Assembly (NCBI GenBank): GCA_002104985.1
Contig: MCGO01000084.1
Location: 62,001-126,000 of the forward strand
Reading direction: 5' to 3'
Origin: Rhizoclosmatium globosum
Lineage: Eukaryota > Chytridiomycota > Chytridiomycetes > Chytridiales > Chytriomycetaceae
DNA: 64,000 bases
Positions within the stretch are counted from its first letter, which is position 1. Every line of letters begins with the position of its first letter. The notes below the pieces were generated by a model. It searched no databases, was not told the DNA's origin, and was given only the letters and a program-made list of their open reading frames with translations. The translations under genes and the position numbers were made by a program. Shown here piece after piece: positions 10,110-62,930 of this stretch.

Positions 10110-10284
10110 AGCAAGAAATGTAATTTAACATCATCACGCACAGAATCTTCCAACCAAAGCATTAATTTTCAGTCAATACATAAACATTGATTCTTACCTG
10201 AAATTAATCGATATTATTAAATGTCAATGGGGTTTGGCTTGTTAAGTTGTGTTGTAGCATTTTAGAACGAACCTACTACACCAG

Positions 10285-10355: not shown

Positions 10356-10484
10356 CACTTTTCGGCGGCGACAGGTTGACGGCGAGTTTGGAGTGTGTGT
10401 TGGTGGTTGCACGATGTTTTCATCCTAAATACTTTACCATCAACATTTACATTAAACACCAGGTTTATTACCATTGTTATTTCT

Positions 10485-11354: not shown

Positions 11355-11473
11355 TGTGCCTGATTTAATGACAATCGAAGAACAAAACTTGAAGTCAGAA
11401 AGATGGAATGACCAACTATATTACTCAGTACTCTCTACATTTAACTAAAAAATCAAATATTACTTCCGGATTA

Positions 11474-12373: not shown

Positions 12374-12558
12374 TGTGACCGTTTGAAAGGAACTAAGAAC
12401 ACAATAGAATCTAAAACAAACAGTATGTATAGAATCTTCATTAATGATCGGATTAATATAAAAACGGGAACACATTATGTGGTTCGATAAGGTAACATTG
12501 TAATTGAATTTAAAACGGAAATTACAACATAAAAAGTTATAATTGTCCAGTCCAAAAA

Positions 12559-13425: not shown

Positions 13426-13626
13426 AAATATTTGGAATCCTTTGAGTATACGAATTCTGTGGTTACTTGTTGGTTCATTGTGTCTTTAATCGTTGCCTGA
13501 CGTATTCAATGACCAGAACAATGGAATTGTTTTAGGGGGTCGTTTGCAAAACTCTACGAATGTCCACAACCGCAAATCAGTATCCCAATCCAGATTCGTC
13601 AATTCAAAACACCTTAAGTCAAGCTT

Positions 13627-16427: not shown

Positions 16428-16443
16428 TGAAACCTCACCTGAA

Positions 16444-19797: not shown

Positions 19798-20053
19798 TAG
19801 CTTCCATGTGCGAATAACAGACAATTGATGCGAAACAAGAAGCGGAAGCCCGGAAAGAAGACGGTCGAGTTGCAGAGCTTCGCGGCTTTGAATTGGTGGC
19901 TCGTATTGACTAATATCCAACGATGCGAGAAGTCGTATGATCTGATTGGCAGGATTAGAACTCGTAGCGTGAGTTTGAAGAAGTGGTTGGGTGATCTCAC
20001 ATCCAAATTGGCAAACATTTCATATGACAATCAATCCTCAGTCCGTTTCTGGC

Positions 20054-36710: not shown

Positions 36711-38225
36711 TCAAAACTCTTCCTCACCACCTTCCTCACTGTCTTCATCATCCTCATCCTCCTCCTCATTCGAATCACTCTCATTCTCCTCCAAAAGCCC
36801 TGGCACATCCGTCTCAGTCAATGACAACCGTCTCAAAGAATCCACAGGCGTACCTCCTTCAAACTCATTATCACTCAACAACAACACACTCAACCTCTCC
36901 AACCCTCCCAACTCCTCAGGAATCAATCCCGACAAACAGTTACTATACAGCGAAAGCGTCTCCAAATTCACAAGCTGCGAGAATTCGATGGGGATTTCGC
37001 CTTGTAATCTGTTTTCAGATAAGTCGAGGGTTTCCAGCCTGCGCAGGTGGGATATCGAGCGGGGGATGGAGCCTGTGAGTCGGTTGTTTTTGAGGGATAA
37101 CTGGCGGAGTGCGAGGAGACCACCAAGCGGAGTTGGTATTTCGCCGGTGAATTCGTTATGTCCAAGTTTTAATGTTTTGAGGTGGATTAGAGTACCCAGT
37201 TGTGCGGGGAGCGGTCCGTTGAGATTGTTTGATGATATATTGAGGATTTGAAGACGATGGAGCTGGTAGATTTGAGGTGGGAGTGAGCCAGATAGTTTGT
37301 TGAAGGAGAGGTTGAGAGATACTAGCGACGTTGCTTGGAATAACGTAAGTGGCAGAGGACCAGCGAGGCTGTTATTGTTCAATAGAAGTTCTTTGAGTGC
37401 ATGGCAGTGATTGAATCCAGCTGGAATCGTTCCCGAAAGGTTGTTGAGAGACAAATCCAAGCTCTCCAAGTTGATAAGCTGACAGAACGATCCTGGAATT
37501 TCTCCATTCAATCTACAACCCGTCATCATAACAGATGTCAGCTGCTGCAAACTCCCAATCCGATTTGGAATAGACCCCCCAGCAAACACCATCTTCCTAA
37601 ACGACTTGACAAACAAATTCGTTTTAGAGCCGAACCTCATATCGCAATACACATCTTGAAAAGTCTTTGGCCACACAAGCCACACTTTATGATGTGTGGT
37701 TGATTCAGTCTGGCTCCCACCCACAAACCGCTTCAAGTTTATAACCGCAAAGAACTTTGTAAGTAGAATCGCATTGAACACTTTCCCGAGTCTGCGGAAC
37801 TTGAGGACTTTCTTTGGAGAGATCCATGAAAAGATGTGGGTAAGGATTTCGGAGGGGAGGTTCATGAAGCGGGTGTAGAACTTTCTTGTTGGGTTTTGGA
37901 GTTTCTGGAGTTGGGCGGACATTTCTCGTTGGGATTGGTGGATTTGGAGGACGAGGGAGTGGAGGGGTGGCGGTGGGTTGTGAAGGAGAGTGGATTGGGT
38001 GCTTTCGAGCGCTATGAGGCGGGCGTCCATTGATTTGAGTTGAGACTGGATATCAGAAAGCAGTGACAGGATTTGCTGGGATGCATCATGGGAAGACATA
38101 TTGATGGGTGGCACGGATGCTTGTTGTGAGTTGTAAAAACACTGCTGAGACAATTTCTGTTGACATTCGACATTCAATAAGAACTCTAATATTTGACCAT
38201 ACATTATTTGGATCGTCATAACCAT
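36711..38225 (-). CDS. F-box/leucine-rich-repeat protein 3, acidic C-terminus
   Basis: Intronless, 504 residues from ATG 38225 (ATG 38100, MSSHDASQQ, is an alternative). A coiled-coil-like N-terminus (LSDIQSQLKSMDARLIALES) is followed near residue 122 by the F-box-like module LPSEILTHIFSWISPKKVLK with LLTKFFAVINL. About ten plant-type LRRs follow (IPNRIGSLQQL through IPEELGGLERL). The last 25 residues are a Glu/Asp run. Same architecture as the genes at 15291 and 20054 but longer at both ends. Probable SCF-type adaptor; substrate unknown. Large shadow frames on the other strand are ignored. Confidence 0.8.
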   Translation of the reverse strand: MVMTIQIMYGQILEFLLNVECQQKLSQQCFYNSQQASVPPINMSSHDASQQILSLLSDIQSQLKSMDARLIALESTQSTLLHNPPPPLHSLVLQIHQSQREMSAQLQKLQNPTRKFYTRFMNLPSEILTHIFSWISPKKVLKFRRLGKVFNAILLTKFFAVINLKRFVGGSQTESTTHHKVWLVWPKTFQDVYCDMRFGSKTNLFVKSFRKMVFAGGSIPNRIGSLQQLTSVMMTGCRLNGEIPGSFCQLINLESLDLSLNNLSGTIPAGFNHCHALKELLLNNNSLAGPLPLTLFQATSLVSLNLSFNKLSGSLPPQIYQLHRLQILNISSNNLNGPLPAQLGTLIHLKTLKLGHNEFTGEIPTPLGGLLALRQLSLKNNRLTGSIPRSISHLRRLETLDLSENRLQGEIPIEFSQLVNLETLSLYSNCLSGLIPEELGGLERLSVLLLSDNEFEGGTPVDSLRRLSLTETDVPGLLEENESDSNEEEDEDDEDSEEGGEEEF

Positions 38226-38909
38226 GGATTAAAAAATAGATTAGTCTTTAAAAACTGTTTTGACCATGATGCAATATATATGAATTCTTTTTTTTTATTT
38301 TTTTTTTTTTTTTTTTTTTTTTATTTTATTTTTATTTTAAAATTATTTTTCCCCCGTATTTTTCTTCTTCCCATTTTTTTTGATTTTTTTTTTTTTGGTT
38401 GATTTATATATTGATGCTTACGTATTGTTTTCTTTTTTGTTTGTTGTTTATTGTTTTTGTATAATAACGTATTAGTTTAAATCTTAGTGTATGGTTTGTT
38501 TGCTTTGTTTTGGTTGACTGTATGTTTCAGAGATATATCAACGCACTAAGGCCAATCTAAACCAAACTTGAAGTTCTGGATAGGGTTTTTTTCTTTGAAT
38601 TTTTTGGTTAAGCAAATCGGTTTTGGTGAGGACTAATACGTATCGTCAAAAGAGTGCAATTCTATAATAAACGGAAATCGGGAAATTGGTGACCTTGACG
38701 TCTTTATTGTATTATTGTTAACACGTAAATATAAGGACGAGGATTGTAGTTTCATATTCATCAAAATAAGGCCGGGAAGGATGGGTGAGTGTCCCTTTTT
38801 GACCCCAAGGAAATTTTGTGAGGCAAAGTCGCAAATATTTGCGACATCACCGACCCCTGGATCCAAACCTCTTGAAATTAACATTATGCTGTATTTAGTT
38901 CTACTATCG
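38226..38909. other. intergenic, T-rich low-complexity tract
   Basis: 38288-38400 on the plus strand is almost pure T with scattered A (a run of more than 20 T at ~38299-38321). The rest is AT-rich with no supported gene. Confidence 0.7.
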
Positions 38910-43131: not shown

Positions 43132-43984
43132 TTATTTGCTTAAACAGATGCGCACATTGGAATCAAATCGCCGCCTCTCAGATACAAGTCGCACTTTCAT
43201 TAACAACAATAGCGCCACAATGATATCCAAACATGAAATCGCCACAAACGAAAGAATCTCACGATTTAAATTGTCGCTTGGAAATTGAATGTATGCTATA
43301 TCGAACGCGAAAGCGAGAAGTCCAAACAGACCAGTTAACGTTCCAAACTGTGCGATTATCTTCAGTCGCGTTTCTAATCCAATACTTCCATCAAGACTTA
43401 TCCTTCGGAGGTAGAGGATGAACGTAACAAGCACGATGAGATCGAAAAGAACCGCAATAAATCCTGCAAGCGCCTCTAAAACCACACTGGCTCTAAGCAT
43501 AAGTCGACTTGAAACCCCACTCAAACGTGCCCAAATACATATTGTATCCACAGTCACGGTTGCTACAAACAATCGGCGATAAATACACGAGTCCTTTAAA
43601 GTACTTGACTCCCTTTGGAATCACTTTCCGTAGCACTTCGCTCCCTCGCAACCAAGTATACAATATATAACAATATAGCAATCCATATACACTTGCATCT
43701 TCAACCAGAAACAGAGTGACTCCAGTGATAACAGATATATCAGAATGTAACCAGTATCGTAACCCAGTGCAAATGTGCAGAGTGATTTGGCATATACATA
43801 ACATGAACAATAAAATGTTGAACGCGTTGAAGGTTTTTTTGCGTGACTGAGATTGCGTTTCAAAGACAATCAATGAGGACAGGAAGCAAAGTCCTATTCC
43901 CGATATTACGGCCATAGAAAACTGGAACTCTGCGAATATAGCAAGCGATGAAAATCCAGTCGTTGATGTGCACTCCGCGTTCAT
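43132..43984 (-). pseudogene. fifth 7TM family member, frameshifted
   Basis: ATG 43984 opens MNAECTSTTGFSS and the first three helices with the family marks NAFNILL, YTWLRGSEVLRKVIPKG and YLSPIV. Near 43567 the frame changes (two bases short or one extra) and continues as FVATVTVDT, with a helix-5 stretch like ITVVFDL, IIAQFGTLTGLFGLLAFAFD and CLDIIVALLLLMKVRL to the stop at 43132. It aligns at the break with SPLILGLTVVMDV of member 3, so the damage falls in helix 4. It lies 30 kb from the other four copies. Confidence 0.75.
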
Positions 43985-44331
43985 GTATTGTCAAACACCT
44001 TGTCAGTCTTTTTCGGAACAATGAACATTCAAGTCACTTTTCTTTCAATTGAAAATCATTATCATTTATTTGGTTGACATATGAAAAATGAGAATGGCCC
44101 CACCTTGTTTCACCACCAGTAATCATGCCTTCATCCGAATGAGCAGAAGACAGTCAGATCCAAACACAATAAATCTAGAAAACAGAACAGTTCGCTTGCG
44201 AATTGAAAGCCAAATCAACAGCAAGCGCCAAAACACCACATCGCAAAAGTTTCCGGTAGGAGGGTCCGTGCCATTCCCGTACAAATGGGTTTTGATACTG
44301 ATTTGGTGCGGCATGATTGCGCAGGTGGCGC

Positions 44332-45347: not shown

Positions 45348-48148
45348 ATGGCAGAGTGCTCCAATTTTGACAATGATGACAATGAATCAATGGACGAAAA
45401 CAATTGTGAAAAACCTGATGGCGAAACTATTGAGCCAGAGTTGCATCAAACGAATACAGAATTTGAAACTCCTGAAAAAATTCCGTTTGTGGTGCATAGT
45501 TCAATGGCTGGAATCAATTTTAGCTCATTTTTGCAAGAGCTTCCAGACAACGTTTTGATTTCGCTGCTCGTACACAGATTCAATCTGAAAATAATGAAAC
45601 CCTCACTTCCCTTTTCCAAATTACGCTACAAAGGAGTATGTACTATTCATGAAAAATCATCCAAGCTTATCCAAGAAAATTGGAAATGACCTTCTGGTAT
45701 TATTGGCTCAGTTGGGTCACAAAAATTTGCCAAAAACTGTTGACGAGGCTCTTTCATATTTGCAGACAGATGAACGTGTTGCTGGTATTGGTGAGTTTCA
45801 AACTCTCAGCCTTGGAGATTATGAAGGAAAACAAATTACTCTGTATTATCGGAGTCTTGTTGATTGTTTCTTGGAACACATGCTTGAAGGTGGTATGGAG
45901 GATATGAAGTTTACAAGTGGCCTGTTAAAAACTGAGGAAACTGGGGAACGTGTTTATGGCGAGTACACTTCTGGAGATGCCTTCAATGCTGCTTTGAAAT
46001 CAGCTCCGCCTGGTGCAAAAGTTGTTACTTACTCTATTTATGGTGACTCAACAACACTTGATCGTGTCGGGCGCATATCAGGACATCCAATTGTTATTCA
46101 ATACACCAATGAGCCACGTTCCAAAAGCCAAACACCAAAAGGAAGACAACTGGTGGCTTTACTTTCAGGCGTACCAAAGGGAATGTCAACTCAAACAAAA
46201 GCTATGCCTGCAGTTCAAGATCTTGGCCGTGAAATATTTCATCGCGCTTTTGAGAAGATTCTGGAACCGATCAAGCAATATCAACGAACTGGATTTTTGA
46301 CTGCTCTTAACTATCAAATGCATCACTTTATCTTGCGACTTTCAGTTGTTCCATCTGACATGTTGGAGCAATATGCTATAGGAAAGATAAAGGGCACCAA
46401 GGCCTTGTCTCCTTGTATTATTTGTATGGTACCCAAGGGGTGCTTGCATTGTGTAAAGGCTCCAAAAACAAAACCAAAAGGAGGTAAATCAGCTGACCAG
46501 AAAGATCATAAGCTGCGACTGGACCCAGCGGGACCAGGAGGATGGAAATTGAGACTCCAAGTTGACATGAAGAGGATTCTTGAACGTCCAGCAAAAAGCC
46601 AAGAAATGATGTGGGCATCGCTGTACCCTGGCTTTAATGCATTTCATGGATTTATGTGAGTTTGATTTATGCATCTGAAATTATGGTACTAATTTGGGAA
46701 AGTGGGTTTGACCTTTACCAGAGCCTTCCAATTGACATGATGCATTGTCGTGGTACAGGATTGGGTGCATATATTCCAGACTATACATTGGAATTGATCA
46801 AGGAGCATGCTGGTCACGCTGCTGTCATCAAAAAAATTGACAAACGAATTCAACAGATTCCTCGTCGCAAGGGACTACGATTGCCGTGCAGTAAAATGAG
46901 CATCACAAACGGAACTATGCTGCGGTCCCATGAGCGTGAATCAATTCTCCAAATCTGGCTGTTTGCGATGATTGAAATTCTTGACGATGGTAAGTTAACT
47001 ACACCTCAACATCATTGGTACATTTTAAATTTTGACAACAGATGATCATAAGGATAGTTTTGAGAAAATGATGATTAGTTTCTTAAAGGCAAATGTCATT
47101 ATGGAACAGGACTATATTCTTGAATCGGAGCTGAATACACTTCAACAACATCTTCTTAATTTTATGGATGCAATGGTGGACACATTTGGAGATCTTGCTA
47201 TTGGTTTCCAAATCCCAAAGTTGCATTCTTTTGTGTTTCATACTGTTTCAGCCATCAAGAAATACGGATCACCAAAAAACACAAACACTGGTCACCTCGA
47301 AAATGCACATATTGCCTTAGTAAAAATCCCATACCAGAAAACAAACAAGAGAGACAACGTAAATCGGCAGTTGGCTGCAAACGTAAGTTAAGCAATCAGA
47401 TTCTATAATTTTAATCAAACTCCAGAACGCACGGCAAGTATCCCTGTGTCGCTATTCTGAACTCATTGATCCTGTTTCTGATGAGGTAGCAGTGGTAACT
47501 TCTTTTCATCGCTGTGGTGGTGTGGTGGAGTCATTTCCGCTGAGCCTTTCATTGAATGCAGATGGAATTCTGCACCTTTCTGAAGCCGGAATATTAATTC
47601 TAGAGAGCTCAGTAGTGGATTCTAGTCAAATTGAGTTGTCCAAATGTTTATCTCCAGAAGGAATGTCTATAATACTTTCAGGAGTCACGGCTCATGCAAT
47701 AACTCTTGAGGAGTCATTAGTTAATACGCAAGAATCTTTTAATGAGTACCAATGGCTACAGCTTCATTCAACTGTGATTATTGCCAATTCATCCACAAAA
47801 CTCTTCTCGTGTACAAATTACCATAATAATGAACGCTATTCTGACATCAAATTGGTGCAATCAGAAAGCCCTTATTCATTTGCACATGTTGCTTCTGTTG
47901 TTTCTGTTTCTAAACGCAAGAGAGCTGGTGAAGAGATGGATGTGTTTTTATTTGTAGAATATTATGAAACTGTAGCTGGAGAAGTTATCCCGTTGAGTGG
48001 GTGTTGTGAATACTTACGCAGGAGTGGTGTGTATGATTTGATATTGTTGGAACAGGTGGATATAGATGTGCTGATGATTCCGCACTTTGGCCGGCGTGAG
48101 AAGGGTAAAGAAGACCGTTTCTTTTATCACAGTTATTTGTGGAAGTAA
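45348..48148 (+). CDS. Plavaka-type transposase (CACTA/CMC-related DDE)
   Basis: An acidic N-terminal segment (frame open from ~45231; first ATG 45348) is followed by exons 45649-46655, 46703-46989, 47042-47382 and 47426-48148, introns 43-52 nt. Family marks: VVTYSIYGDSTTLDRVG then GHPIVIQYTN, GRQLVALLSGVPK, LPIDMMHCRGTGLGAYIPDY, and GFQIPKLHSFVFHTVSAIKK, YGSPKNTNTGHLENAHIALV, NKRDNVNRQLAANNARQ. This is the signature of Plavaka elements described in fungi. The long exons are open throughout; only the link from the acidic N-terminus near 45640 is off by one base. It encodes the enzyme that would cut and move the element. Confidence 0.85.
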
Positions 48149-48537
48149 AATTAGAGGAGGGGAGCTTCGTTTCTCATTTTTTGCCATCTTGCAAGCAAGC
48201 GTGGTGCATCTTTCTCTGTCTGAAATTTTTGGATACCTCTCACTTTTTCACTATGTCCCCACCCACCACCATACCCATACATCGCTATTGGCGATGGCCT
48301 GCACGATGGCCTGCAGAAGGGTTTATGCTGCAACCTTCGCGCAAACTCTCTCAATCCCTCTCCCACCCGCACATCGCTATCGGCGATGGCCTGCAGAAGG
48401 GTTCATGCTGCACTAACTCAATCCCCCCTCTCCCCCACTTCTCAGCCAGAGCAAGACAGACCACAAAGCAGTCTATGAATTCTTATTCAACTACATACAA
48501 GAAATCTGGAGACGAAAAGAGGTGAGTTGGGTTTGCA

Positions 48538-49426
48538 GTGGTGTACCAAAACTCACTTTTCCTCCAGACGCACCAGCACCTTCAAACTTCGCACATATCA
48601 TCGATACGAGTACGAGGGGACGCCTATAAAGTTTGGAGACGAATGGAGGTGATTTGGGTTCGCAGTGGTGTACCAAAACTTACTTTTCATGCAGAAGCAC
48701 CAACAACTTCAAACTTCGCGTAGATCATCGATAAGGGTACGAGGGGACGCATGCAAAGTTTGGAGTTGAATGGAGGTGATTTGAGTTTGCAGTGGTGTAC
48801 CAAAACTCACTTTTCCTCCAGACGCACCAGCACCTTCAAACTTCGCACATATCATCGATACGAGTACGAGGGAACGCGTATAAAGTTTGGAGACAAATGG
48901 AGGTGATTTGAGTTTGCAGTGGTGTACCAAAACTTACTTTTCATGCAGAAGCACCAACAACTTCAAACTTCGCACATATCATCGATAAGGGTACGAGGGG
49001 ACGCATGCAAAGTTTGGAGTTGAATGGAGGTGATTTGAGTTTGCAGTGGTGTACCAAAACTCACTTTTCCTCCAGACGCACCAGCACCTTCAAACTTCGC
49101 ACATATCATCGATACGAGTACGAGGGAACGCGTATAAAGTTTGGAGACAAATGGAGGTGATTTGAGTTTGCAGTGGTGTACCAAAACTTACTTTTCATGC
49201 AGAAGCACCAACACCTTCAAACTTCGCACATATCATCGATACAAGTACGAGGGAACGCGTATAAAGTTTGGAGACGAAAAAAGGTGAGTTGGGTTTGCAG
49301 TGGTGTACCAAAACTCACTTTTCCTCCAGACATTCCAACACTCTGCAGAGCATTGATGGGAGTATGAGGGTATGCATGCAAAGTCTGAAGATAAACGAGG
49401 TAAATTGGGCGAATGTCGGTAGTAGA
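48538..49426 (+). repeat. 127-bp tandem repeat, seven units in an alternating A/B order
   Basis: The motif GTGGTGTACCAAAACT recurs at 48538, 48665, 48792, 48919, 49046, 49173 and 49300, exactly 127 bp apart. Units alternate: A has CTCACTTTTCCTCCAGACGC, B has CTTACTTTTCATGCAGAAGC, in the order A-B-A-B-A-B-A, so the real period is a 254-bp dimer. Each unit includes CACATATCATCGAT-type sequence. The last unit drifts after 49330. Open frames inside (about 73 codons, repeated) are by-products. Confidence 0.95.
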
Positions 49427-51405
49427 ACTAACTTTTATTATTACTACACTCAGAGACTACAAAGAGAGTAGTGGAATTCTGTAGACAATGTGAGAGAATG
49501 GGGTGATTTGGAGCAGTATAAGGAACGATCCGTGGAAAGGTGAGTTGCATGGTTTCTCATTTTGCACCATTCTTGCGAGAGTATGGATTGTACAAGTAAA
49601 GCATATTACCTGTATTTTGTATTGTTTATGTATAAGGCACTAGATCTGCATTGTCTGGAAATCATGTATGAACTTTATAGAAAGTGTTAAATTGGTAGAA
49701 TGTGCCAAATTCGTACGTCTTCGGTGAATGTTGTTATTATTGCAGGTCCACTGGGCGAGCACCAAGTCTGTATAACGTACAGTTTTAATATTTGGAACAT
49801 GTCTGACACCTTCTAACCGCCAAGTACCATTGATTTGTAGTACGACCTTCAACCACCAAAGCACTGGTGAGCACTGGTTCAATGCCGACCATTAAAAACA
49901 CGCAAATTTTGTAACAAGTGCCCAAGCCACGCAGGTCTCAAAACCCGCACTGTTTTGCAAGCTGGTGTATTAATTGCGTTGCTTACCAAGCAAGTACCAA
50001 TCCTGTGGTTTGTTCCGATCCCATAAGACACATGAACCCTGTATGGCAGTACCACCCAAAGTGGTACAAAACCCGCACTGATACCCCGTGCTGACCCAAC
50101 AGATATTCAATAAAGGAAAATTTTGCGATGCATGCACTTGTTGCGAAAAATACCTTTGGTATTTCAACATAGCTTTTGTAGTTGTTCATAAGCTCAAGTA
50201 TCGAATTCCAGTTTTTGTTTCCGATTCCACCTTTTGTTTTTTGTGAGCAATGTTGGTGGGACAAAGTGTTCCCAAAGTGTTGATTCCAGTGATAAGATGC
50301 TCCGTAAGTACAAATGAAACAAGGAGCTCTTGTCACATGATTCTCTAGGGCACTTTAAGTCCAGGTACGCTGCGAGGTGGAAGAGGAATAGGGAGAAGTG
50401 CTGGATTGATGTTAGTTGCCCCATAGCCCGGTTTCATGCATTTCAACCACCAAAGCCAGTGCATCTCGCTCGCTTCTAAGGCACCAACACCTCTCGTGTG
50501 AGGTAAGTTCCGCCAGGGAAAAGTGGCGATGGATATGGACATGCACCAATAACACTGAAGTTGTGGAAATCGTTTCCAGCAACTGGCTCGCTCCGCTTTT
50601 TCCGAATATCCTGCCACTAAACCACCTTTCCGCGTATAGAACAGTTAACAATAGAAGCATATTGACGCTGCGTGTTTTGATGGTTGAGAAGGTCTTCGAG
50701 GTAGGAGCCAAAACATGTGGACAATGCGAGGGAGTAGTGGACTATGAAATCGAAAGCGCGATCCGTGAAGATAAATGATCCAGTTGGTAGATACAAATGG
50801 TACACTGCAGACTAACAGCATATTGACTGATTCATTCAGTCAGCAATTAATAGCGCACCGGCTCGGCTTCAAGAACCCCGCCATTCTCTTCTCGGACTGA
50901 TCGTTAGCACATAAGTTCGGAACCAAAACCTTCACTTGTCCCTATGATACATTTCTACTACTTATCATTCGCTCAAACAAGTTTTCTGCGTATTTGAGAG
51001 TTAAGCTGGCGTTTCAATTAACAGGAGACACACTTGTCGAACTCCACTAGAACAGTCCAAAGTTGAAGAGTGATGGAGCATGAAGCTGGTTTCAATGAGG
51101 AAGGATGTGACTTGGAGAACTGGATCGTCAGCATTGGTTTCTGGTAACATTCAAAACGTCGGATTCATTCCAACGCATAGCTGGCGACGATTTACGTCGT
51201 ATTCAATGCCGGGCGATGGTTCATAGATAACTTTGGGCAGTGGAGAGGCAGTTGAGAGTCGCCGCACAGTGCAAAACTAACCTGTCTAGCTACTGGAGCT
51301 CCTACAACTTCATCATTGACTCTTCAAAGCCAATATCATCCGGTAACTCTTGTTTGTAGTGGTATATTGCTTAACCAAGGATACCAATTGGTTCTATTTG
51401 TCCAG
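49427..51405. other. 2-kb stretch without a supported gene
   Basis: Only short overlapping frames on both strands. A stretch near 49530-49600 (TTTCTCATTTTGCACC, TTCTTGCGAGAG) echoes 48170-48210, so repeat-like sequence continues past the array. AAAACCCGCACTG occurs twice (about 49936 and 50068). The promoter and first exon of the WOPR gene downstream should lie in the right-hand part, but I could not identify them. Confidence 0.5.
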
Positions 51406-53860
51406 GAAAAATCCAGCAATAGACGAACATCCATCGGCATCAACGAACATGGATTTGACGTTGAACAGGCAGTCACGTCATCCCACGAAGGAGGGTGTCG
51501 GCACTGTGGCGCACGAAACGTTCAACACCGACCCAACTGAAACCAGACAACCTGGCAAACCAGCGCCAATCAACTCGTCAAATGCTCGAAACACTCCTCG
51601 AAGTATTGATGAGAGTACGAATTGCTGCGGTAACGCCAATCCCGATTCTGCCCACTCCTACCCTCCCTCCTACATCCACACAGAGGCGAGAAATCGATCA
51701 GATACGGCAAACCATAATTAGTTTCAGTAATATTGAGGTACTGAGATTCTGGTGTGACAAAGTAGAATAAGCATCTCAAAGGGAGAGAAGAGTGAGTGAA
51801 AACCAGCAGACTTGCCTCGCAAGATATCATCAAGGAAGCCCTACTATAGTGATCCTGAATATTTGAATTCTTCTCCTCGTACCCCATAATCCTCCCCCCA
51901 GTCTGTCTCTGCAAATTCGACTTTCCTTCGTCCCAATCCTGACCTAATCCTGACAAAACCCAACAAACCCACTCAATCCGCCAGTGACAGGTACTATCAT
52001 CGTTTCAGACGCAATTCTGAAGTCCCCAAGTTCAAAATCATTTGAGACAGGTGAGTTCCTATCTGAAGAACAGTGCGAGAGTCAAAGATGCCAATTATGA
52101 CGAACTGAGACATACTGATTATGACGAGTGACATAATCCTTATCAACATGACGCTGGGAATGTGTTTAGTAGATTAAATCGTCCGGTCGATCTTTAGAAT
52201 CGTGCACTACTGAGTCGAGATGGGCTCAGTGATTGTAACTGATACGGATGAGCGAAGCGAATTGATTTGAAACGACCCTCCTACAGTCAGAATTATCTCT
52301 CCTCATATGTTTACCAGTGCGAGCGATTAGCCTCTGCTGGGAGTAAAGTTTAACCACAAAAACTCGTCAAATAGAGGCAACTTCAACTCACCAACACATT
52401 ATGCACGGGGATAAGACGAGAAAGAACAATAATGAACTGCTTCCATATACTGGTATGAGTTTTGTGTTTCATGGATGAAGCTGTGGCTTTTTGATACACT
52501 GACATTGACTTGAAAAACCATAGGGACGGGTGGTATGAACAGTTCGCCTATTACTATCGATGTTCTTGGTACTCCTCTGGATCGTGACGGTGGTGAGTTG
52601 AAGCCAAAGACCTCATTCCTTGTCGAAATCCACATCAGAAACGAGAAATAGCGACAGAGCATTCGCAGTTCTCTAATTTTGAAACTGTAGGGTGAGAGCC
52701 TGAAAATGAGTGAGATGGGAGAATACAAGGAACGAGGGACCTTTTGATATGAAGTTAAGCGCACGAACTTCAGAATACAAAAGCACCACTCGGTTTGTCG
52801 CTTGGATTGAGAATGCATTACCTCATCATTGCACATATTCTATTTGTGGATTTGTGGATCGTTTGCTCAACTTCCGCATTGACGACGTTAATCAAACCAT
52901 TGAACATTCAAACAGAGGCTACACGATACACACAGACAATCAACGGTGCACGAGGAGACACCAAGAGTACGTCAGAGTCGAGTAAGTCAGCCAATCCTAT
53001 AAGCGAAGTGGCTCCTCTGCGTTGAGAGTCTGCGACGACAATGGTTGTTGTGCCGCAGCTTTGTGATAAAGCTAGAAGAAATTCGAAGGTGTAGTCTGCG
53101 GAAGAAACGAAAAGCGGTCATTTGACACCCCTGAGATGGATGTTGGTGTGAATTAGTGACAAGGTTGCTGACACGTCAAAATCGTAGGAGAGACAAACCT
53201 TGCAATGAATCCAGCAGCGACAGAGGGAACAAATTGTCCATCACTCTTTGCCTCAGGTTTACATGCAAGACCAGGCTTCATGATAGGGAGTTCTGCCCCA
53301 TCCACATCCACGATTGTGAGTCCAAATCATGCTCAAGGTTTGTTCTCGCAATCATTCCGACCACTTATACGTCATAAACTGAATTTACGGTACTTCATAA
53401 ACAGCCTCATCAAGCTTGCTGACTCACCAATCACCACTTGGATTGGAAACTATTCGCACTGAGAGCCTGGATGTAGACGACGGCCAAGTGAAAGCTTCTC
53501 GAAACAATGACTCCACAAGAGAAGCAGCAGAGAAGGGTGAACGAAGCGTCATAGTCAAAAGCGTATCAGGTAGGCGTTCAACCCCAAGTTCAAAAAACAA
53601 CTTCGTGTAAGAAAAGGGGGATCACGATATCTTGCAAGATACGCCCGTCAAACTATATCTGGCTCGTCTAAAATGTATAGCGTTTGAGAAGGAACTTAGG
53701 CGGAAAGAATTCCTTCACAAACGTTGGTTCATTAATCGTCACTAACCTAAACCTTCCCATCCTGAAACAGAGAGTCACAGCATAACTTCAAAGGTACTTG
53801 AGTCCAGTGGAAAAGCTATGGAGGAACGACTCCCTTTGTATGACGATTCCAAACAACGAG
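51406..53860 (+). CDS. small-exon array forming the 5' part of WOPR gene 1
   Basis: Seven candidate exons: 51406-51614, 52009-52050, 52524-52592, 52916-52981, 53188-53337, 53405-53569 and 53771-53860. The first runs phase 2 to phase 1. All others are exact multiples of three (42, 69, 66, 150, 165, 90 bp), begin after a good AG and end before GT in phase 1. They join in frame to the exon at 53998 (DTNSLPEPERWRPQ...) that leads into the WOPR protein at 54048. The 165-bp exon contains TESLDVDDG, matching TESLDVAYS of an exon in the mirrored gene. Peptides are Ser/Thr/Asn-rich. The first coding exon is not found, so the start is open. RNA data are needed to confirm use. Confidence 0.5.
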
Positions 53861-54047
53861 GTGAGCAGAACTTTTCTTGCTTGGAACAGAGCTTCACTCG
53901 CTTTGACAACCTCAATACTCCGATATCGATCCATTATATATCGATTGAAACCTAACGTTTGGGGCGTTCAGATTTGTGTTAAACTATATTTCTGCAGACA
54001 CAAACTCTTTGCCCGAGCCAGAGCGTTGGAGGCCACAAGCGTCAAAC

Positions 54048-55607
54048 ATGTCCAAAGGTACAAGAGATCGGTCCGAGTCACCCCCAGCAGTGAACGAGGA
54101 CGACGATGACGCTGAATACAGAGCATCATCGTCTCGAAGTAAACGACAACGGACCTCCACTAAATCCTACAAAGAAGTAAACGAAGACAGTAAGAATAAT
54201 CAAAAGACAGTTCTGTTTGAGACGTACCATGGATACATCGAGGATCCTATGGATGCGTTGTATGTCGTCCAGGGCACTGTCCTCGGGAAGCTCACCCCAT
54301 TTGCGGGAACCGCTGAAGAAATGGCTCAAATTCGTATACGGAGTGGAACTGTGATTGTGATGGCTGAAAATAGTCCTTTTGTAAAACGGTGGAGAGTGAG
54401 TTCGTTGGGCTGTAAATTCCTTCGTATTTGTTCTGAATTCCTCGATCTGATTCAGGATGGAATACGCTGGTCCCCTTCACGTGCCTTTGGTCCGTTCATT
54501 CTCTGTGAGTTATTTGCGTGGGACATTGATGGCGAAGACTGATTGTCCACAGACCGACAAATCGAGAACAAAGATCCAAACGCTACTACTCAAGATGAAG
54601 AATTGAGTGTGGATATATTGCCGCCTCCTGGGCACTTTGGTTCAACAACTGGAGTGCTTCCAACATACACTGAGAGGACACTGAAACCAAACACACAGCT
54701 TCTCAAGAATGGGCTGACAAAGCGAACTATCAGCGTTAAAGGAAGCGATGGTCTCAAACACCGAGTTGTTTCGTATTATAGTTCGAAAGATGTGTTGGAG
54801 ATGAAGGCGAGATCGAAGGCCTTGGATGCAGGCATTCCGGAAAGAGAAGGGGGCCATTTCTGTAGAGCTGTAGATGACCCTGTGATGAAGACATTGGTTC
54901 AAGAGACCGGAATCAATATGGTGAACTTGTTGAAACAAACGTTTGCTGATTGGAAGGTGGAACGTTTGTCTCAGACGCGCCGAGTTTCTCCGCCACCATC
55001 AAAACAGGCAGTATCTTCAAGGCCAGTGCGTAATCAAACGGGTCAGCGTGGCCAAAGTGAAGGTCTTGAAGGGCGACAGCAACAACCTCATTTTGACAAC
55101 ATCAAGACACCACCAAAAAAGGAACAACTCAGCCTGACATCATTGAACTTGGCCAATAATCACCAAAATACGTCTTCTTCAGTATTGAATCCGCGTAGAC
55201 TGTACGAAAAGATGGACTTGGATGGTTACTATCCATACCAAGACCATTCCGAGGACTACGACGACTTCTGCGCTCGCCGTCATCACCCTCCATCACAAAC
55301 CCAACCTTATCCTCCTCCGCGTTTTCTTTATCAACAAACATACCTTCAAAACCATTCAACTCAACACCGATCTCAACAATATTCTGGGTCATACCATTAT
55401 TCCCAAGTCGGACCAGCAGCTCCCTCTGTACCACATAACACCTCAAATCTGCACCATAGTCATACTCATGTATACCCCCCACCAACACACGTTCAAGCAG
55501 GTCAACCTACTCATTTCACCACTCCTCCAGTTCATCCTGTTCATCCAACGCTACCTCATGTTGGACATACTTTCTATTACCCACCATTCCCACCAAATCA
55601 TCAATAA
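54048..55607 (+). CDS. WOPR gene 1 (Gti1/Pac2 family regulator), core exons
   Basis: Exons 54048-54395 (in-frame extension back to 53998), 54456-54504 and 54553-55607: 483 residues from this ATG. Acidic/basic lead (NEDDDDAEY, SRSKRQRTS), then WOPR half A: FETYHGYIEDPMDALYVVQG, IRIRSGTVIVMAE, FVKRWR / DGIRWSPSRAFGPFIL. After a linker comes half B: GSTTGVLPTYTERTLKPNTQ, NGLTKRTISVKGSDGLK, RVVSYYSSKDV. The tail is rich in Tyr, Pro, His and Gln. WOPR proteins (Wor1, Ryp1, Sge1, Gti1, Pac2) bind DNA as fungal switches of morphology, mating and virulence. Intron positions (after KRWR; after FIL) match the other copies. WOPR gene 2 starts 62 bp downstream. Confidence 0.88.
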
Positions 55608-55669
55608 AGATGATAGCATTTGAAAACGTTTGTCAGTGTCGAAAACTTTTCTGATCACAGGGTAAAACA

Positions 55670-56979
55670 ATGGCCAGTACTTCAGAACGCCCAAGTGTTC
55701 AAAAAGCAGGATCGTCAGAGGATGTTGAACACACGAATCAAACTTATCATGGGTTCATCGAGGATGCAATGGACGCCCTCTTTGTGGTTCAAGGAGCTAT
55801 ATTGGGCGTCCTATCTGCCTTTACTGGCACCGCCGAAGACATGGCGAACGTCGATGTGCGAAGCGGGACGGTCATCGTTATGGCAGAGAACAATCCCTAT
55901 TTGAAGCGATGGAGGGTTCGTGCTTGATTTTTGAAGGTTGAGTCACTGTCTCAGCCGTTTTAACACCTACCTCTTTTCATTTTGAATCAGGATGGACTCA
56001 GGTGGTCACCGTCAAGGGCGTATGGGCCTTTCATACTGTACAGGTAACGTTGTGGGGCATGATGAAACTTCAAGTAACCATTTCATCCAGAGAAATCGAG
56101 GCAAAGGGAGCAAACTCAACTCAACCTAACAACGATTTGATTCAGGATATGATAAACTTATCTGGTCATACTGGTTCCACAACCGGATTATTGCCCTCGT
56201 TTTCGGAGAGGACACTCAAGCCAAACACACAACTACGCAGAGAAGGTCTAACAAAACGTACCATCAGTATTAAAGGAAGTGATGGTATAAGCTATCGCGT
56301 TGTGTCCTACTATAAGGCTTCAGATGTGTTGAGTACAAAGGCCTCGGAACGAACAGCGGAAAAGTTGAATGGACTCCAACACCAGCAGACTGCGGAAAAG
56401 AACAATACAACGCTTTCAAGACCGTCTTATGACAATCACTTGATACTAATTATGGAAAAGGCTGGAATTAGTATGAAAAGTTTAATCAAGACTACACTTC
56501 CGCAATGGACGCCAGAACGGCCAATCGCACCTAGCCGAAATGCCCCACATGCTTTGAAACAAGTTGTGAAAGAGTGGAAGTTACCGGCAACCAGGAATCG
56601 TAAAATTTCTGGCACGTCCATAATGTTGGACGAAACTCCAAAACCTGTTAGCGAGTATGGAGGAACAACAAACAGTCCAAATGTGACGAAGTTATACACT
56701 GGAAAGTATTTTGAGAACTACCATCCATATCGCCAAGGCTCGAAGTCTTACGATGATTATGTGGCTCGTCAAAGTTACCTCACAAAACTCTCCGAATTAC
56801 ACTTTCCTAAGCAAGCATTTAATGAGACTCATTCTCCATCGTACCCATCTTCAAACTTTGGTTACCCCCCACCACCTCAGATTTCTTCCCATAACCAATA
56901 TGAAACAACAACCATTTATGGACATACAAACCAGTACTTTGGAGGATATTATAATGTTTATAATAATGGAGCCACATAA
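55670..56979 (+). CDS. WOPR gene 2 (Gti1/Pac2 family), short form
   Basis: Exons 55670-55915, 55991-56043 (53 bp) and 56091-56979 give 395 residues. It starts almost at the domain: YHGFIEDAMDALFVVQGAIL, VDVRSGTVIVMAE, YLKRWR / DGLRWSPSRAYGPFILYR, then GHTGSTTGLLPSFSERTLK, EGLTKRTISIKGSDGIS, RVVSYYKASDV. The long tail ends Tyr/Gly/Asn-rich (YETTTIYGHTNQYF). No small-exon array precedes it: only 62 bp separate it from the previous gene's stop, so its promoter must be inside or very close to gene 1. The fourth, frameshifted copy at 21635-22955 is its nearest relative. Confidence 0.9.
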
Positions 56980-57101
56980 ATAAGAACTAAATTTCCTACA
57001 GTTCCAAGTGCAATCGGACAAATCAAATTCCCTCTATACCTTCATCTAATATTCTTTATTCCTTTCTTCCTTTCTTTTTGAATAAACAAGCTCACAAGAA
57101 T

Positions 57102-58846
57102 TCAATGTTGATCTGGATAGTAGGGATAAGGGGGTGCATAATTCGAAGGAGATGGGTTTGGCCAATAAATAGGTGCCATCATGGAATTCTGTCCATGCTG
57201 ATATTGTCGGGGATCATATGTGTGAGTTGGTGGTGGTGGAGGGAACGATGGCGAAGAAACAGTTTGATAATGTTGCTGAAATGTATGCAATCTGCTGGCC
57301 TGATACTGAGGATATAAGCCTCGATTATCCTGGTATTGCTGATGATGTTGATAGCCTGGACCGTCGACTCGTTCTCTTGACGTCTTCCTAAACGCATCAT
57401 ACGACTGAGCTCCATTCTTGTAAGGATGATATCCAGCAAAGTCCTTCACATATAAATAAGACCAATCTTTCACTATGCCTGTAGCATGACCACGAGTAGG
57501 AGGTGGTTGATGCACAACTGTGCGAATTGTTGAATCTTGTCGGAATGAGCTGCCTCTTGATTGCCCAACCAGGACGGCCGCTTCCTCTTTCACCTTTACC
57601 AGAATGTCCTTTGACTGTGTAGTTTCTCTGCGCGGCGAGACCTTTGTTCCAAACAACTCTGGCTTCCAGTCTGGAAACGACTGCTGCACCAATCCCAACG
57701 CATCCACGCCGCTCTTCTTCACCATCTCTTTTAGTCTATTATCTTCAGTTGCTCGCATAAACCCCATCAGTACATCGTTTTCCTCCTTCCTCTGCATCTT
57801 ACGAATCATCTCCATCACGTCTTTTGAATTATAGTACGACACCACACGGTGCTTCTCGCCGTCGGAGCCTCGAACCGTTATCGTGCGCTTTGTAAGTCCA
57901 TTCTCTGTGATTTGTGTACCCTCCTTCAATGTGCGAGCAGTGAAAGTTGGTTGTAGGCCAGTTGTTGAGCCGTATGGAGTGGAATATGGAGCTGGCTCAT
58001 GCGTAACATCAGGCTCATCTGGAGCTCCTGGGTCCTTCAACTCGATTTGTCTGAGGAGGATGCAGCACAATCAGAGGAGGCTTAGATTGACAATCTCATC
58101 AACAACAACACAAACCTGTACAAAAGAAACTGGCCATACGCACGCGAAGGAGACCACTTGATCCCATCCTAATCCATTTCGTTAGTCACACGAAGTCAGT
58201 TGGTTCCCCAACATTCCCCTCCCTCCTCCCAATCCGGAACCAAAATTAAACTTTAAACTCACCCTCCACCGCTTGACAGTCAATCCTTTCTCAGGCATTA
58301 CAATGACTGTTCCACTTCTGACTTTGATACTCGCCATTTCTTCTGCATTTCCTTTGAACGCGGGCAAGACACCCTCCAAAGTTCCTTGAACCACATACAC
58401 TGCATCTAAAGGATCCTCAATGAAACCATGATACGTTTCGAAAAGCACTGTTTTTGCTATATCTGAACGCAGATCGGGTTTGCCTTCTTTATAGTTGGCA
58501 GGACGTGCTAGCCGTTTGGATCGAGTACTCGTGTACTCTCCGTCTTCGTAGTCTGTCGCTGTGCGAGGCCTTTTTTGTTTCTTAAAGGATACAGAGCCGC
58601 TCTGGGTGCGACTTGGACCTCCTTGGGATATGGATTCAGATCCCTGTTCTTCAAGTCTTGAATTCGAATCGTCCACACCAGTTTCTACCATAACTGTATT
58701 AGCTCCTAGTAAACGATCGCCAACAAGTGCGTCGTTTTGTTTTTGTTGAAGCAGTTGTGCTGAAGTATGAATCCAGTCTTCGTTTGAAACTCGACTAAAT
58801 TTCATCCAAACAGCACCGTATCCGTCCCCAGCGTCGCCATTATTTT
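57102..58846 (-). CDS. WOPR gene 3 (Gti1/Pac2 family), 3' core exons
   Basis: Exons 58846-58263, 58168-58116 (53 bp) and 58050-57102. Alone, from ATG 58805, it encodes 514 residues; with the upstream exons it would be ~1145. Lead: acidic/basic with SFKKQKRPRTATDYEDGEY. WOPR half A: FETYHGFIEDPLDAVYVVQG, IKVRSGTVIVMPE, TVKRWR / DGIKWSPSRAYGQFLLYR. Half B: GSTTGLQPTFTARTLKEGT, NGLTKRTITVRGSDGEK, RVVSYYNSKDV. The tail is Tyr/Pro/His/Gln-rich. The first exon starts after an AG at 58847 in phase 1, and the frame runs on upstream of the ATG (NNGDAGDGYGAVW), which is why I join it to the exon at 58931-59092. Convergent with WOPR gene 2 (122 bp between stops). Confidence 0.88.
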
Positions 58847-58930
58847 CTACTCAAGTATTTATCATTTCTGAAGGATCCACTCATCATCGACATGTCGGAC
58901 TTCCGCGATACCTTGGATTCAGACACTCAC

Positions 58931-61900
58931 CATCAACAATGCCAGCACTATACTCGCCTGACACAGTGCGAAGCTTTAATTCTGTTCTCAACGATGGCTG
59001 GCCTTGATTTTGATCGCCGTTTGCCCACCCGACCTTCTGGCTCCAACCCTCAGTCACTGTGAATCTCAGAGGCTCCATGTTTGAAACCGAATCTAACAAC
59101 AGTTATAAATCAAGCACAAAAAGTGATTAGGCTAGGGGTAGGGAGCAGAAAGAGGACTAGTGTGTATCCCAGGGCGGCAGGAGCCGCCTTTTTCAAGTCC
59201 AAATTGTTCTATGGAACAGTTATTGCATCAGACTCCATCCAAATTGCTTTTGACGAGTAATATGCTTATCATTGGAGACTTTCGGCGCAGAACGTCACTT
59301 CAAGTTGTTCCCATGTCTTCAAACTGTTAGGGTGGAGTTGAGCACCTTACCTGATGTCGCATGGATTACAACAGCTGACTTCTCTACATTTAAATATGGT
59401 AAAACATTGTCGTTTGATCCTCTAATCTTCGTCGTTTGATTCACGGGATCTGACTGAACAAAGTTTCCAGGAATCGAGTCCTCGTCCCGATTTTCAACCC
59501 TGAACCGGTCCAGCTGTATAACCTCATTCTTTGAATACTTTTGATGGTCTTCAACCTGTGTCGATGCATCTGTGCCGGTGGGAAGAGGTGTTCCGCTTCA
59601 GAATTCACAGTGTTTGTGCTCATCAACTTCAAAAACAAACCTGTAGGCTTTTGCATCTTGATATTGTCTCTGTTTTTTCTTGGTTCATCTCCAGACTTCT
59701 TCTCATACAACTTGAATCCAGTCCTCATCTCATCAGAAGGTTGATCCAATTCCTCACGAACATGATTCAGAGCATTGTTTCTTGCGCTCGAAGCATCGGC
59801 GCCTTCTCTAAATGATACAAGGTTGGATACGCTCATCCTGTCTGAGATTTGATCTGTAGTTGATGGGAGAGGATGAATGTTGAGTTCAAAGTGTTTTCTG
59901 CAACGAGTCGTTTGCAAAACATATAGACAACACGGACTTAAACCCAAGAAAAGATATGGAGAGGAGCGTTCTTTTACGTAATGGGAGTGATTGGATTGCG
60001 GTTTTGAAGTTGTGCCTGAATCAAGGCTATCCATCTGAACATTCTCCGCCAACTGTTCACTCTTCATGCTTCGAGATTCTCCTCCTATGTACATTCTATG
60101 ACAACTGGTGACTATTCTTTTCATGGTCGACAATCCACAGTCTGCCTTTCTCTATCCTGAACTCCCGTTTCATATTCTATCCTCAACAACTATCGAGAGT
60201 CTTAACGACTTTAACAAGGACTCACCTTTTATAGTGGACTGATTCTGACTCAACGTCTTGCCGTGGCCGGTGGAACTTTTCACGCCGCTTTTTGGGATCT
60301 GATTGGCAATATCATCGGCATAAGTTTGTCTCAGTGCATCGGAACCCGAAACTTGATAAGGAGCATCTGAAATCCCCGTCTGTTTGAATGTGTCTGTTTT
60401 TTGGAGTCAGTTCAGCTCATTTTGATAGATTCTTCAAGCAGTTATTCCACACTCATATAAGCTGCATATTATCTGCTTCACAATCAACCTACTTTGAGTT
60501 CCTGTCGGATATTGGTCTGAAGGAGGGCCGTGGCTGTCGGAACTCATTTTCACACCGGTTTTGGGGATCTGTTCGACAACCTCGCCTTGTTCTCGTCTCA
60601 AAATACCCGAACTTTTGATTTGACCAAAAACGTCTGGCATATTAGTCGCACTTGCTGGACCTGCGTATGGAGTCACATTGAATACAAGTGTCTCAAACTT
60701 ATAGCCATTCCCAACGAATATGGTTCCATCGGAATCTACACATCGCTCTCAAAATCTTATTACTCACCTCTTGTTCCACTTGGATATTGGGTTGGAACGT
60801 GACCGCGGCCGTTGCTGGAACTCATTTTCACTCCGCTTTTTGGGATCTGTTCAAGAACAGCATCATGGACTCTTGTCGTGGCTGAACCTGGAACTGAATA
60901 AGCCACATCAAGAGATTCTGTCTTAATCGATGCCCCTGTATTTGTATCCAAGTCAGTTAGGTTCAATGGGATACCTTATTTAAAGGCTCTGTTACTATTC
61001 TCAACTCGATATAGTTACTGTCTGCTCTATATCTCTCGACCTCATCACTCAATTTTAATTCCTGCCTGACTCTGATTCACAGAGGGGCCACAGCGCCTGG
61101 AACTCAGTTCCCTGCGCTTTTTGCGATCTGGTCAATAACATCGCTATACGCTCTTCTCAAATTACTCGAACTTTGGAGAAACAAACATCATCCAGTTTAT
61201 CAGCCTCATTATATGTATGTTGACTCAGGTTGACAATGATTTGATATCTAGCCGTCAACAGTCGCTATTCTCAAAACTATATGGTTTCTTCCAGCCATAT
61301 ACATCTTACTCTCATATCATACCTCTGATTTCGGTTGGGTCCTGACTCATATAGTAGCTGCGGTGGTTGGGACTCGTCATTTTCACGCCGCTTTTTAGGA
61401 TCTGCTCAAGAACGGGACCATTCTCTGCTCTTGCCGTGGCTGAACCTGGAACTTGGTTCGCCGCATCGAGATGAATTGGCTTTGAGGGAGTACCTGTATT
61501 TTTGTGGATTCAGTGGAACTCAATGGGATACCGTTGTATCTTGGTTACGATTCCCAACTGGATTTGGTTCACAGACACTCTACATTATTGTCACTATCCT
61601 CACCTCTGTTTTCAGTCGTATTTGTGTTCGCAGGGCTCATTTGTCTGTGGTCGCTCATTTTTACGATGCTTTCAAGGGAGGAGTCGAGGATCCGATATAT
61701 TGCGTCTCTTGGATTGGCCATTACTTGAGTATAACGAACTTCTTGAAACTGGCCAGTCGTTGGTACAGATTCTGTGTTGGGTTTTTGAAGGTTGGTTATG
61801 GGATTTGCCTACAGTGAGAGGGGATTGCGTTCCGAATTGACAAAGTTGTACAGGAAAGTGGATATAGCGATACTAGAAGAGAGGAAAGATAGTTGAGTTG

Positions 61901-62446
61901 TTTCGCGAGTGTAGCGGCGCTGTTTGATGCGTGTCAATAGGCTTTAAGTTGTCTGAGCAGGCGAAACTTGGTATGCCTCGGCGACATTCCGTCGAATATG
62001 CTTCACTCTCATCTTTCACTCATCCTGATGTGTCTTATACCGTTTGGAGATATTGATTTGTGGGTTTTCTGGTAGCGAAGAAGGGAGGAAGGAATGGGGA
62101 AGAAATTGCAGATCGGAGATGATGCTTACCCCCGGCACTGCGTTGCACTTCACGTGAGGAGGCTCTTGGATGTGAAGTTGTATGATCCCTGCATAGATCT
62201 ACTTCAGCAGCAGATTGTACTGCGGGGTTGCTTTCGTGGCTGGTTGGGTGCTGGGATTGAGACGGTCCACGTGAGTCTGGATCGTGTGGATCTTTGGTAA
62301 AAGATTTCTGGACGTGTTGCGCTGGCGTAGGAGGCCATCTGTCGTTTGGTTGCATCTGCCTGGGGTCCAAGTGGTTTTTTGTCAGGGATTGAAACAAATC
62401 ACAGCTCAGGAAGTGCGTTGTTGGAGAGATGGAATTGGGAGAACAT
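58931..62446 (-). CDS. small-exon array forming the 5' part of WOPR gene 3
   Basis: Exons in order: 62446-62403 (ATG, MFSQFHLSNNALPEL), 62359-62130, 61771-61604, 61493-61323, 60935-60768, 60660-60493, 60393-60226, 60084-59944, 59853-59641, 59569-59351 and 59092-58931. From the third on, lengths are 168, 171, 168, 168, 168, 141, 213, 219 and 162 bp: all multiples of three and all phase 1 to phase 1, ending in frame at the WOPR exon 58846. The 168/171-bp exons repeat one module around LEQIPKSGVKMSS (forms: LEQILKSGVKMTS, VEQIPKTGVKMSS, ANQIPKSGVKSST, LESIVKMSD), with VPGSATTR-like lead and Tyr/Pro/Gly tail. No known domain. Frame consistency is strong; actual splicing is unproven. Confidence 0.6.
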
Positions 62447-62930
62447 AGCTTCGTATTGCGGGGTTTATGGTGGCTTCAGAGGTCTAAGCATCTTCAGGTG
62501 GGAGTGGGTTTGATATCTGTTACCAACTTTCGCTCTGCTTCCTTCGGATCCTCCTTCCGCCCTTCCTTCTCTCTTTACTAATAAAATACGTATTCTTCAA
62601 AGGAAGATGGTTGGTGGATTGGACGAGGGAGTGCGTACCGTCAATAGTTTGCTCTGGTTTTACTTTGGGTTTGTGGTTGTTGATTCGACACTTTGGGAAC
62701 ACTTTGTCCACACTTTGTCCCTTTTCTTGATTTTCCTCATTTCTAGGATTTACTATAAATGAATTGTGATGTTGTCTCTAGTTTAGCTATGTTCCATCCA
62801 TATCATTGTTTTAAAGTATTTTAAAGACAGTCAGCATTTCAGCTTCAATTTATGATAGATTTGGTTTCTTTTTGATCCTTGTCATAAACCGTGACAATCT
62901 TTTTACTGAAGAACATCACGTTCATTTCAG
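62447..62930. other. divergent promoter region
   Basis: 484 bp between the first exon of WOPR gene 3 (leftward) and the zinc-finger gene (rightward). No supported gene or repeat. Confidence 0.5.

Follow-up and report, generated by a model that had tools for sequence, protein, structure and literature searches.

The window analysed here, a stretch of 64,000 nucleotides corresponding to positions 62001-126000 of contig C404 in the 56.9-Mb, 420-contig genome of the saprotrophic chytrid Rhizoclosmatium globosum (PMC12115818), holds two neighbouring WOPR genes that bear runs of mini-exons: gene 1 on the forward strand and gene 3 on the reverse strand. In both, the predicted exons that precede the WOPR domain are small, have lengths divisible by three, and are flanked by phase-1 introns. 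We consider it quite probable that these runs form an N-terminal extension of the two regulators and that the repeated modules of gene 3 arose by tandem duplication. The whole locus is found in three copies (C404, C10, and C152) with a divergence of about 5%, and at least two additional copies of gene 1 are located on C10 and C265. Pairwise identity among the C404, C10, and C152 copies switches along the sequence, as if they had recombined. Two public gene models serve for comparison: HDU79_008245 of Rhizoclosmatium sp. JEL0117 (hereafter P0001), an apparent orthologue of gene 3 by its 96% sequence identity over 89% of the searched region, and BCR33DRAFT_720849 (hereafter P0003), a WOPR paralogue of R. 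globosum itself.

Upstream of its WOPR exons gene 3 carries eight internal mini-exons, all multiples of three in length and all (8/8) of phase 1-1. Given in the order of transcription on the reverse strand they are M1 (61604-61771, 168 bp), M2 (61323-61493, 171 bp), M3 (60768-60935, 168 bp), M4 (60493-60660, 168 bp), M5 (60226-60393, 168 bp), X6 (59641-59853, 213 bp), X7 (59351-59569, 219 bp), and X8 (58931-59092), the last being 162 bp long in C404 and 186 bp in C10 and C152, a difference that amounts to a single 24-bp in-frame indel. The first five had been quoted in a preliminary description of this DNA, and they are indeed present at these coordinates with AG/GT flanks and an open phase-1 frame. 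They follow a putative first coding exon of 226 bp (62130-62355), with its ATG at 62355, which ends in phase 1 and is open in all three copies; if internal and starting at 62291, it would be a ninth phase 1-1 exon. The first half of the WOPR domain is encoded by 58263-58684, behind a phase-1 acceptor that reads GGTAG in 3/3 copies; a second WOPR exon (58116-58168) reads as in P0001, and the last exon (57102-58050) contributes the second WOPR half, a C-terminal tail, and the stop. The introns within this WOPR part are of phases 0 and 2. If the acceptor at 58684 is taken, the chain of 12 exons that runs from 62355 down to 57102 is free of internal stops in all three copies and encodes 1029, 1035, and 1035 amino acids, which agrees with the earlier statement that the small exons join the WOPR domain in frame. 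Where that description started the WOPR exon, at 58846, it needs correction: the optional 162-nt segment 58685-58846 is open and in frame in C404, but carries a frameshift and stops in C10 and C152, into which a chain through 58846 runs, and it is missing from P0001, which reads as though it were spliced to 58684. The latter position is thus the more likely start. The segment itself may be an exon form that is arising or being lost.

Gene 1, read on the forward strand, begins with a first recognised coding exon at 51449-51614, which contains the ATG and ends in phase 1. Six internal mini-exons follow, again all (6/6) of phase 1-1: 51991-52050 (60 bp), 52524-52592 (69 bp), 52916-52981 (66 bp), 53188-53337 (150 bp), 53405-53569 (165 bp), and 53771-53860 (90 bp). 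The exon with the first WOPR half (53998-54395) has a phase-1 acceptor; it is followed by WOPR exon 2 (54456-54503), the donor of which was read by hand and inferred by comparison with gene 3 and P0001 (one chain computation used an exon longer by 2 bases), and by the last exon (54553-55607). The mini-exons of gene 1 are open in 5/5 copies, and their splice dinucleotides are intact except for one change from AG to AC, ahead of the 60-bp exon in the C152 copy, where skipping would preserve the frame. Taken together, the internal mini-exons of both genes span 60-219 bp, and their introns are GT-AG introns of phase 1. The frame-neutral exons announced earlier are therefore found as six in gene 1 and as eight plus a putative first one in gene 3.

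That both genes encode WOPR proteins follows from the profile PF09729 (cut-off 23.6 bits), which matches the first WOPR exon of gene 3 with 28.0 bits and that of gene 1 with 44.2 bits; the last exons of the two genes, searched alone, give no PF09729 match. The whole of P0001 matches the same profile with 89.9 bits (positions 1-168), and in the first half of the domain it also matches the solved structures of Wor1 (4qtj, E 2.7e-14) and YHR177W (4m8b, E 2.2e-10). Its public model starts at an ATG inside X6 and continues through X7 and X8 into the WOPR exon from 58684, so that, by the model of another strain, X6 to X8 belong to the WOPR gene. P0003 aligns exactly, through its introns, to contig C361 of the same genome when the 29-nt intron of the public model is allowed in the mapping; its intron phases are 0, 1, 1, 1, 1, 1, 2, 0, and the exons between the phase-1 introns measure 174, 243, 204, and 240 bp. 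Across the contigs of the genome the PF09729 profile yields 69 exon matches. Two further WOPR genes, alike at the start of the domain, lie in the window at 21635-22883 (reverse) and 55670-56979 (forward); the latter, at 55.7 kb, is gene 2, which begins at an ATG a short distance upstream of the WOPR domain.

The dominance of phase 1 was assessed with a scan for the best non-overlapping set of symmetric exons, scored by splice and codon models that were trained on 23 sequences without any fetched copy of the gene 1 and gene 3 loci. For gene 3 the 1-1 set scores 33.9 (nine exons) versus 1.5 for 0-0 and 5.0 for 2-2 sets, and for gene 1 it scores 15.2 (six exons) versus 0 and 0.6. Among 112 controls, each a stretch of 2,750 bp, none combines at least six 1-1 exons with scores of at most 5.5 for the other phases. 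By the margin alone, gene 3 (26.1) stands above all 112 controls, and gene 1 (14.6) is exceeded by four of them. An earlier training, which excluded the C10 and C152 copies and included two copies of gene 1 (L034 and L037), gave 34.5 versus 0.6 and 4.4 for gene 3, and 17.0 versus 0 and 0 for gene 1, with two of the 112 controls above the gene 1 margin; the result held after retraining without L034 and L037. With those earlier scores the set chosen in gene 3 used acceptors 60974 and 59002, unlike the modelled boundaries. Of the eight stretches scanned with those scores, the antisense strand of gene 1 gives 6.9 for 1-1, and the forward strand of 48500-51300 scores 10.7, 6.3, and 10.9 for the three phases. 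When the phases compete freely, six of the nine exons chosen are 1-1 in gene 3, and also six of nine in gene 1. The scan was extended, with the earlier scores, to the regions upstream of 21 WOPR exons: 1-1 dominates in all three gene 3 type regions, in all five of gene 1 type, and in the one of P0003. After retraining, the scan gives 21.0 for 1-1 versus 3.6 and 0 at the P0003 locus, which is among the training sequences. Upstream of the three gene 2 places the scan is confounded by gene 1, and the regions of the remaining nine WOPR exons (five at C118/C279; L022, L028, L033, and L038) are not dominated by 1-1.

A gene finder that is free of any phase preference (a first training with a weak intron penalty, which gave 3,823 introns in 250 kb, was discarded) points the same way. 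In gene 1 it places six introns from 51614 up to the WOPR exon, and in gene 3 five (four after retraining) ahead of the WOPR exon, all of them in phase 1, and it recovers M5; for the 60-bp and the 150-bp exon of gene 1 and for X8 it favours other acceptors of the same phase, at 52009, 53275 (internal), and 59002, respectively. In the copies that it modelled, every intron before the WOPR domain in genes of the gene 1 and gene 3 types is of phase 1. As a rough background, introns of phases 0/1/2 number 115/117/79 in the training set and 77/86/52 in those predicted genes that lack a WOPR motif.

Comparison of the copies speaks for translation of these exons. Over 2,037 bp, the internal mini-exons of both genes together show two indels, of 24 and 3 bp, both multiples of three; the introns separating them, 2,674 bp in all, show 22, of which three (3/22) have a length divisible by three. 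Silent and replacement changes amount to 19/35 in gene 3 (p 0.022) and 26/51 in gene 1 (p 0.043), and in either gene only the predicted frame, of the three, shows the silent excess. Judged from these changes the constraint on the mini-exons appears weak. They are probably coding and part of the N-terminus of the WOPR genes.

Five of the gene 3 exons had been described as repeats of one module. This stands for M2 to M5, which are repeats at the protein level in all six pairs, with z between 5 and 17, but not for M1, which by protein is not a repeat of the others (p 0.11) and is their kin in DNA only: its exon is related to those of M2-M5 (p 0.001 to 0.03), and its intron matches that of a decayed sixth unit (z 10.5). 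The decayed unit lies at 61047-61215 on the reverse strand, inside the 387-nt intron between 61323 and 60935, and its exon DNA resembles that of M2-M5 with z values of 7.4 to 17.9; it contains a stop in C404 and C152, its 3' part is open in C10, and by eye its donor GT is lost in C404. Because the units are spaced 270 to 281 bp apart, the array appears to have grown by tandem duplication of an exon-plus-intron unit of about 275 bp, with one unit decaying thereafter. A genome search with M2-M5 returned 12 matches at E ≤ 1, all of them within the three copies of the locus (four per copy); in the other fetched loci neither M1-M5 nor X6-X8 have a match at E ≤ 0.5, and the modules match no Pfam family. 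That X6, X7, and X8 are further copies of the module finds no support (protein p 0.24 to 0.65; DNA p at least 0.07), and the gene 1 exon 53405-53569 is not clearly related to it either (protein p 0.63 versus M2-M5). The other of the two gene 1 mini-exons (out of six) that were compared with M2-M5, by protein only, was 53188-53337, with a borderline p of 0.043.

Several results weigh against the view that the whole run is an N-terminal extension. When phases compete freely, shorter exons of other phases displace M1-M3, and the gene finder begins gene 3 inside M4, omitting M1-M3 and, after retraining, X7 as well; since both procedures leave out M1-M3, we rated the extension lower, and non-coding DNA higher, than we otherwise would have. 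In gene 1 the finder omits 52916-52981 and fuses the gene with its upstream and downstream neighbours; upstream of 51406 its introns are of phases 0 and 2, the one closest to that position being of phase 2. Phase 1-1 is not outstanding upstream of the C118/C279 paralogues (5/5 places), although it ranks top in two of them, and in P0003 a phase-2 intron after residue 365 comes between the phase-1 run and the domain match, which starts at 366. The five module exons by themselves show 11/21 silent and replacement changes (p 0.095), and another frame does equally well. In the putative first exon of gene 3 the rates of replacement and silent change (pN and pS) are about equal in two of three copy pairs, which is near neutral, and with so little or no silent excess the ATG at 62355 is uncertain. 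Finally, the stretch from 58846 to 58685 is broken in two of the three copies, so that the acceptor downstream of it is required. The extreme position would be that the mini-exons are non-coding remnants that are open by chance and that the WOPR genes start at their WOPR exons. The weak constraint and the breakage immediately upstream of the WOPR exon fit such a view, but the frame-keeping indels and the silent excess in the predicted frame, the symmetric-exon scan with its controls, and the phase-1 runs that two public models have ahead of the WOPR domain contradict it, and we regard it as highly improbable.

More serious is the proposal that the five module exons constitute a separate upstream gene and that the WOPR gene starts in X6 (MSVSN...). 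This is where P0001 starts, omitting the five module exons as well as the first exon; by eye, read-through beyond the M5 donor meets a stop after about 18 codons; and no public model that contains the modules, or links them to a WOPR domain, was found among the protein lengths searched. These were about 155-490 amino acids for the module array alone (no match at E ≤ 1) and about 595-1890 for the full-length search, so that models of other lengths would escape both. On the other hand, the phase-1 acceptor of X6 is the best among the chosen 1-1 exons (6.7 nats) and sits 17 nt before the ATG of P0001, where a first exon has no need of it; the M5 donor, likewise of phase 1, is strong (7.4); the chain is open across the M5-X6 join in 3/3 copies; the gene finder joined M5 to X6 unprompted; and a 22-bp element common to genes 1 and 3, described below, precedes the modules and is not found between M5 and X6. 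From the X6 acceptor, the M5 donor, the open join in 3/3 copies, and the position of the element we infer, on the DNA sequence, that the modules belong to the WOPR gene, and we deem a separate upstream gene rather unlikely.

A different question is whether the run works as a combinatorial splicing device in which differing mini-exons are skipped, so that one regulator would occur in many N-terminal variants. Each of the 14 internal mini-exons is symmetric, and with phase 1 at every internal boundary exons could, as proposed earlier, be skipped without loss of frame; the 162-nt segment before the WOPR exon is bounded by two phase-1 acceptors, of which P0001 uses the downstream one; and in the C152 copy of gene 1 the 60-bp exon, the skipping of which would keep the frame, no longer has its acceptor. 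Symmetric phases, however, also result from exon duplication alone, and the constraint on the mini-exons is weak. The repeat array is better explained by tandem exon duplication with one copy decaying than by selection for combinatorial splicing. Regulated exon skipping is possible, but a working device of this kind seems unlikely to us.

Gene 1 and gene 3 have in common a 22-bp element with AAAGTGT repeats, identical at 50259-50280 (forward, 1.2 kb upstream of the gene 1 ATG) and 62688-62709 (reverse, 0.33 kb upstream of the first exon of gene 3). It is part of a 28-bp block common to both array genes (50259-50286 and 62682-62709) that contains GGACAAAGTGTTCCCAAAGTGT. In the genome GGACAAAGTGTTCCCAAAGTGT has 10 exact sites and two with one mismatch, versus none for the reversed control. 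Eight of the exact sites lie upstream of all eight fetched copies of genes 1 and 3; the ninth, C404:156265, resembles gene 1 in its flanks and is about 4 kb upstream of a PF09729 match; and the tenth, at C404:160815, belongs with both one-mismatch sites to a common third context. The flanks in the three contexts look unrelated; the core of a site is made of two or three tandem 11-bp units that contain AAAGTGT. On C361, the contig of P0003, no site was found. A looser 20-base pattern gives 32 sites with at most one mismatch versus three for its reverse; 18 of them are exact, 13 at known places of the element and five at C223:835-902 kb, where the PF09729 search returned nothing. The WOPR motif is TTAAAGTTT; autoregulation through the element is just an idea, and the far-reaching combination of a WOPR switch with a stage-regulated tail of combinatorially skippable exons and autoregulation through a genome-exclusive 22-bp AAAGTGT element appears very unlikely.

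The reading we prefer, a phase-1 extension of the WOPR regulators, suggests the following picture. Genes 1 and 3 would encode DNA-binding regulators of the WOPR (Gti1/Pac2) family with a long N-terminal extension assembled from symmetric exons of phase 1; five of those in gene 3 would descend from tandem duplication of the 275-bp unit, whose sixth copy has decayed, and would be spliced to the remainder of the gene. The WOPR domain would bind DNA, and a flexible and weakly constrained tail might tune the regulator through partner binding, activation, or stability. The fold prediction of P0001, made from a six-sequence alignment, is of low confidence, with a mean predicted local distance difference test (pLDDT) value of 40.4; nearly all of the 273 residues before the WOPR domain have values below 50, which is consistent with disorder. 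With every internal boundary in phase 1, the gain, loss, or skipping of an exon leaves the DNA-binding part intact; such frame-neutral turnover would ease the evolution of the tail and may also yield isoforms. The tail would be modular, able to grow and shrink by exon duplication, in several closely related gene copies with a common upstream element. Should skipping prove true, this would be an unusual case of combinatorial splicing in a fungal transcription regulator; even without it, a regulator would extend its tail by exon duplication while its DNA-binding part is kept safe.

Some other genes of the window were also noted. An RNA-dependent RNA polymerase is encoded at 17320-20019 (reverse; PF05183, 534 bits), and by eye a second such gene at 26924-29815 (forward). 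A Plavaka-type transposase (45598-46659, forward; PF18759, 49.5 bits) lies about 5 kb from gene 1. Similar hydrophobic open reading frames resembling membrane proteins, seven-helix-like by eye, are clustered at 7814-13485 and 43132-43990 (both reverse); the one that was tested has no Pfam match. Leucine-rich repeat proteins are recognised by eye at 15291-16460 (reverse) and 20030-21118 (forward), and 36711-38228 (reverse) matches leucine-rich repeat families, with an F-box-like match under the cut-off.

In yeasts and moulds WOPR proteins switch cell identity, and the family includes Ryp1 and Sge1; in the members known so far the protein starts at the WOPR domain or close to it, and introns are few. 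Genes 1 and 3 resemble the known family (PF09729; Wor1 and YHR177W) in having a WOPR domain above the Pfam cut-off and, through P0001, a match to the solved structures; they differ from those members in that the domain is preceded by as many as about 600 residues, encoded by small exons most of which are symmetric. P0003 is like them in its five consecutive phase-1 introns before the domain, with four multiple-of-three exons between; it is unlike gene 3 in that its first intron is of phase 0, a phase-2 intron lies at the start of the domain, and its contig is without the 22-bp element, and its N-terminus gives no convincing alignment with that of gene 3. Among the matches listed in literature searches (chytrids, early-diverging fungi, isoforms, introns), no title or beginning of an abstract tells of a WOPR gene with such an array, which leaves the corresponding statement of the preliminary description uncontradicted, and no work on WOPR proteins in chytrids stands out among them; WOPR and Gti1 go unmentioned in the available text of PMC8778642 and PMC12115818. 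The likeness to the micro-exon genes of schistosomes that had been drawn earlier is a formal one. Most of the coding sequence of those genes is in exons of at most 36 bp; runs of small symmetric exons are common to both, whereas the exons here, at 60-219 bp, are larger than that. Another parallel is offered by tropoelastin and the PEVK region of titin, where symmetric exons have been tandemly duplicated and in-phase exon units can be added or skipped without loss of frame; these, however, are structural repeats of animals with known alternative splicing, whereas the exons described here are predicted from DNA and belong to a fungal DNA-binding regulator. WOPR proteins and arrays of symmetric exons are each known, and it is their combination in this chytrid that appears to be new.

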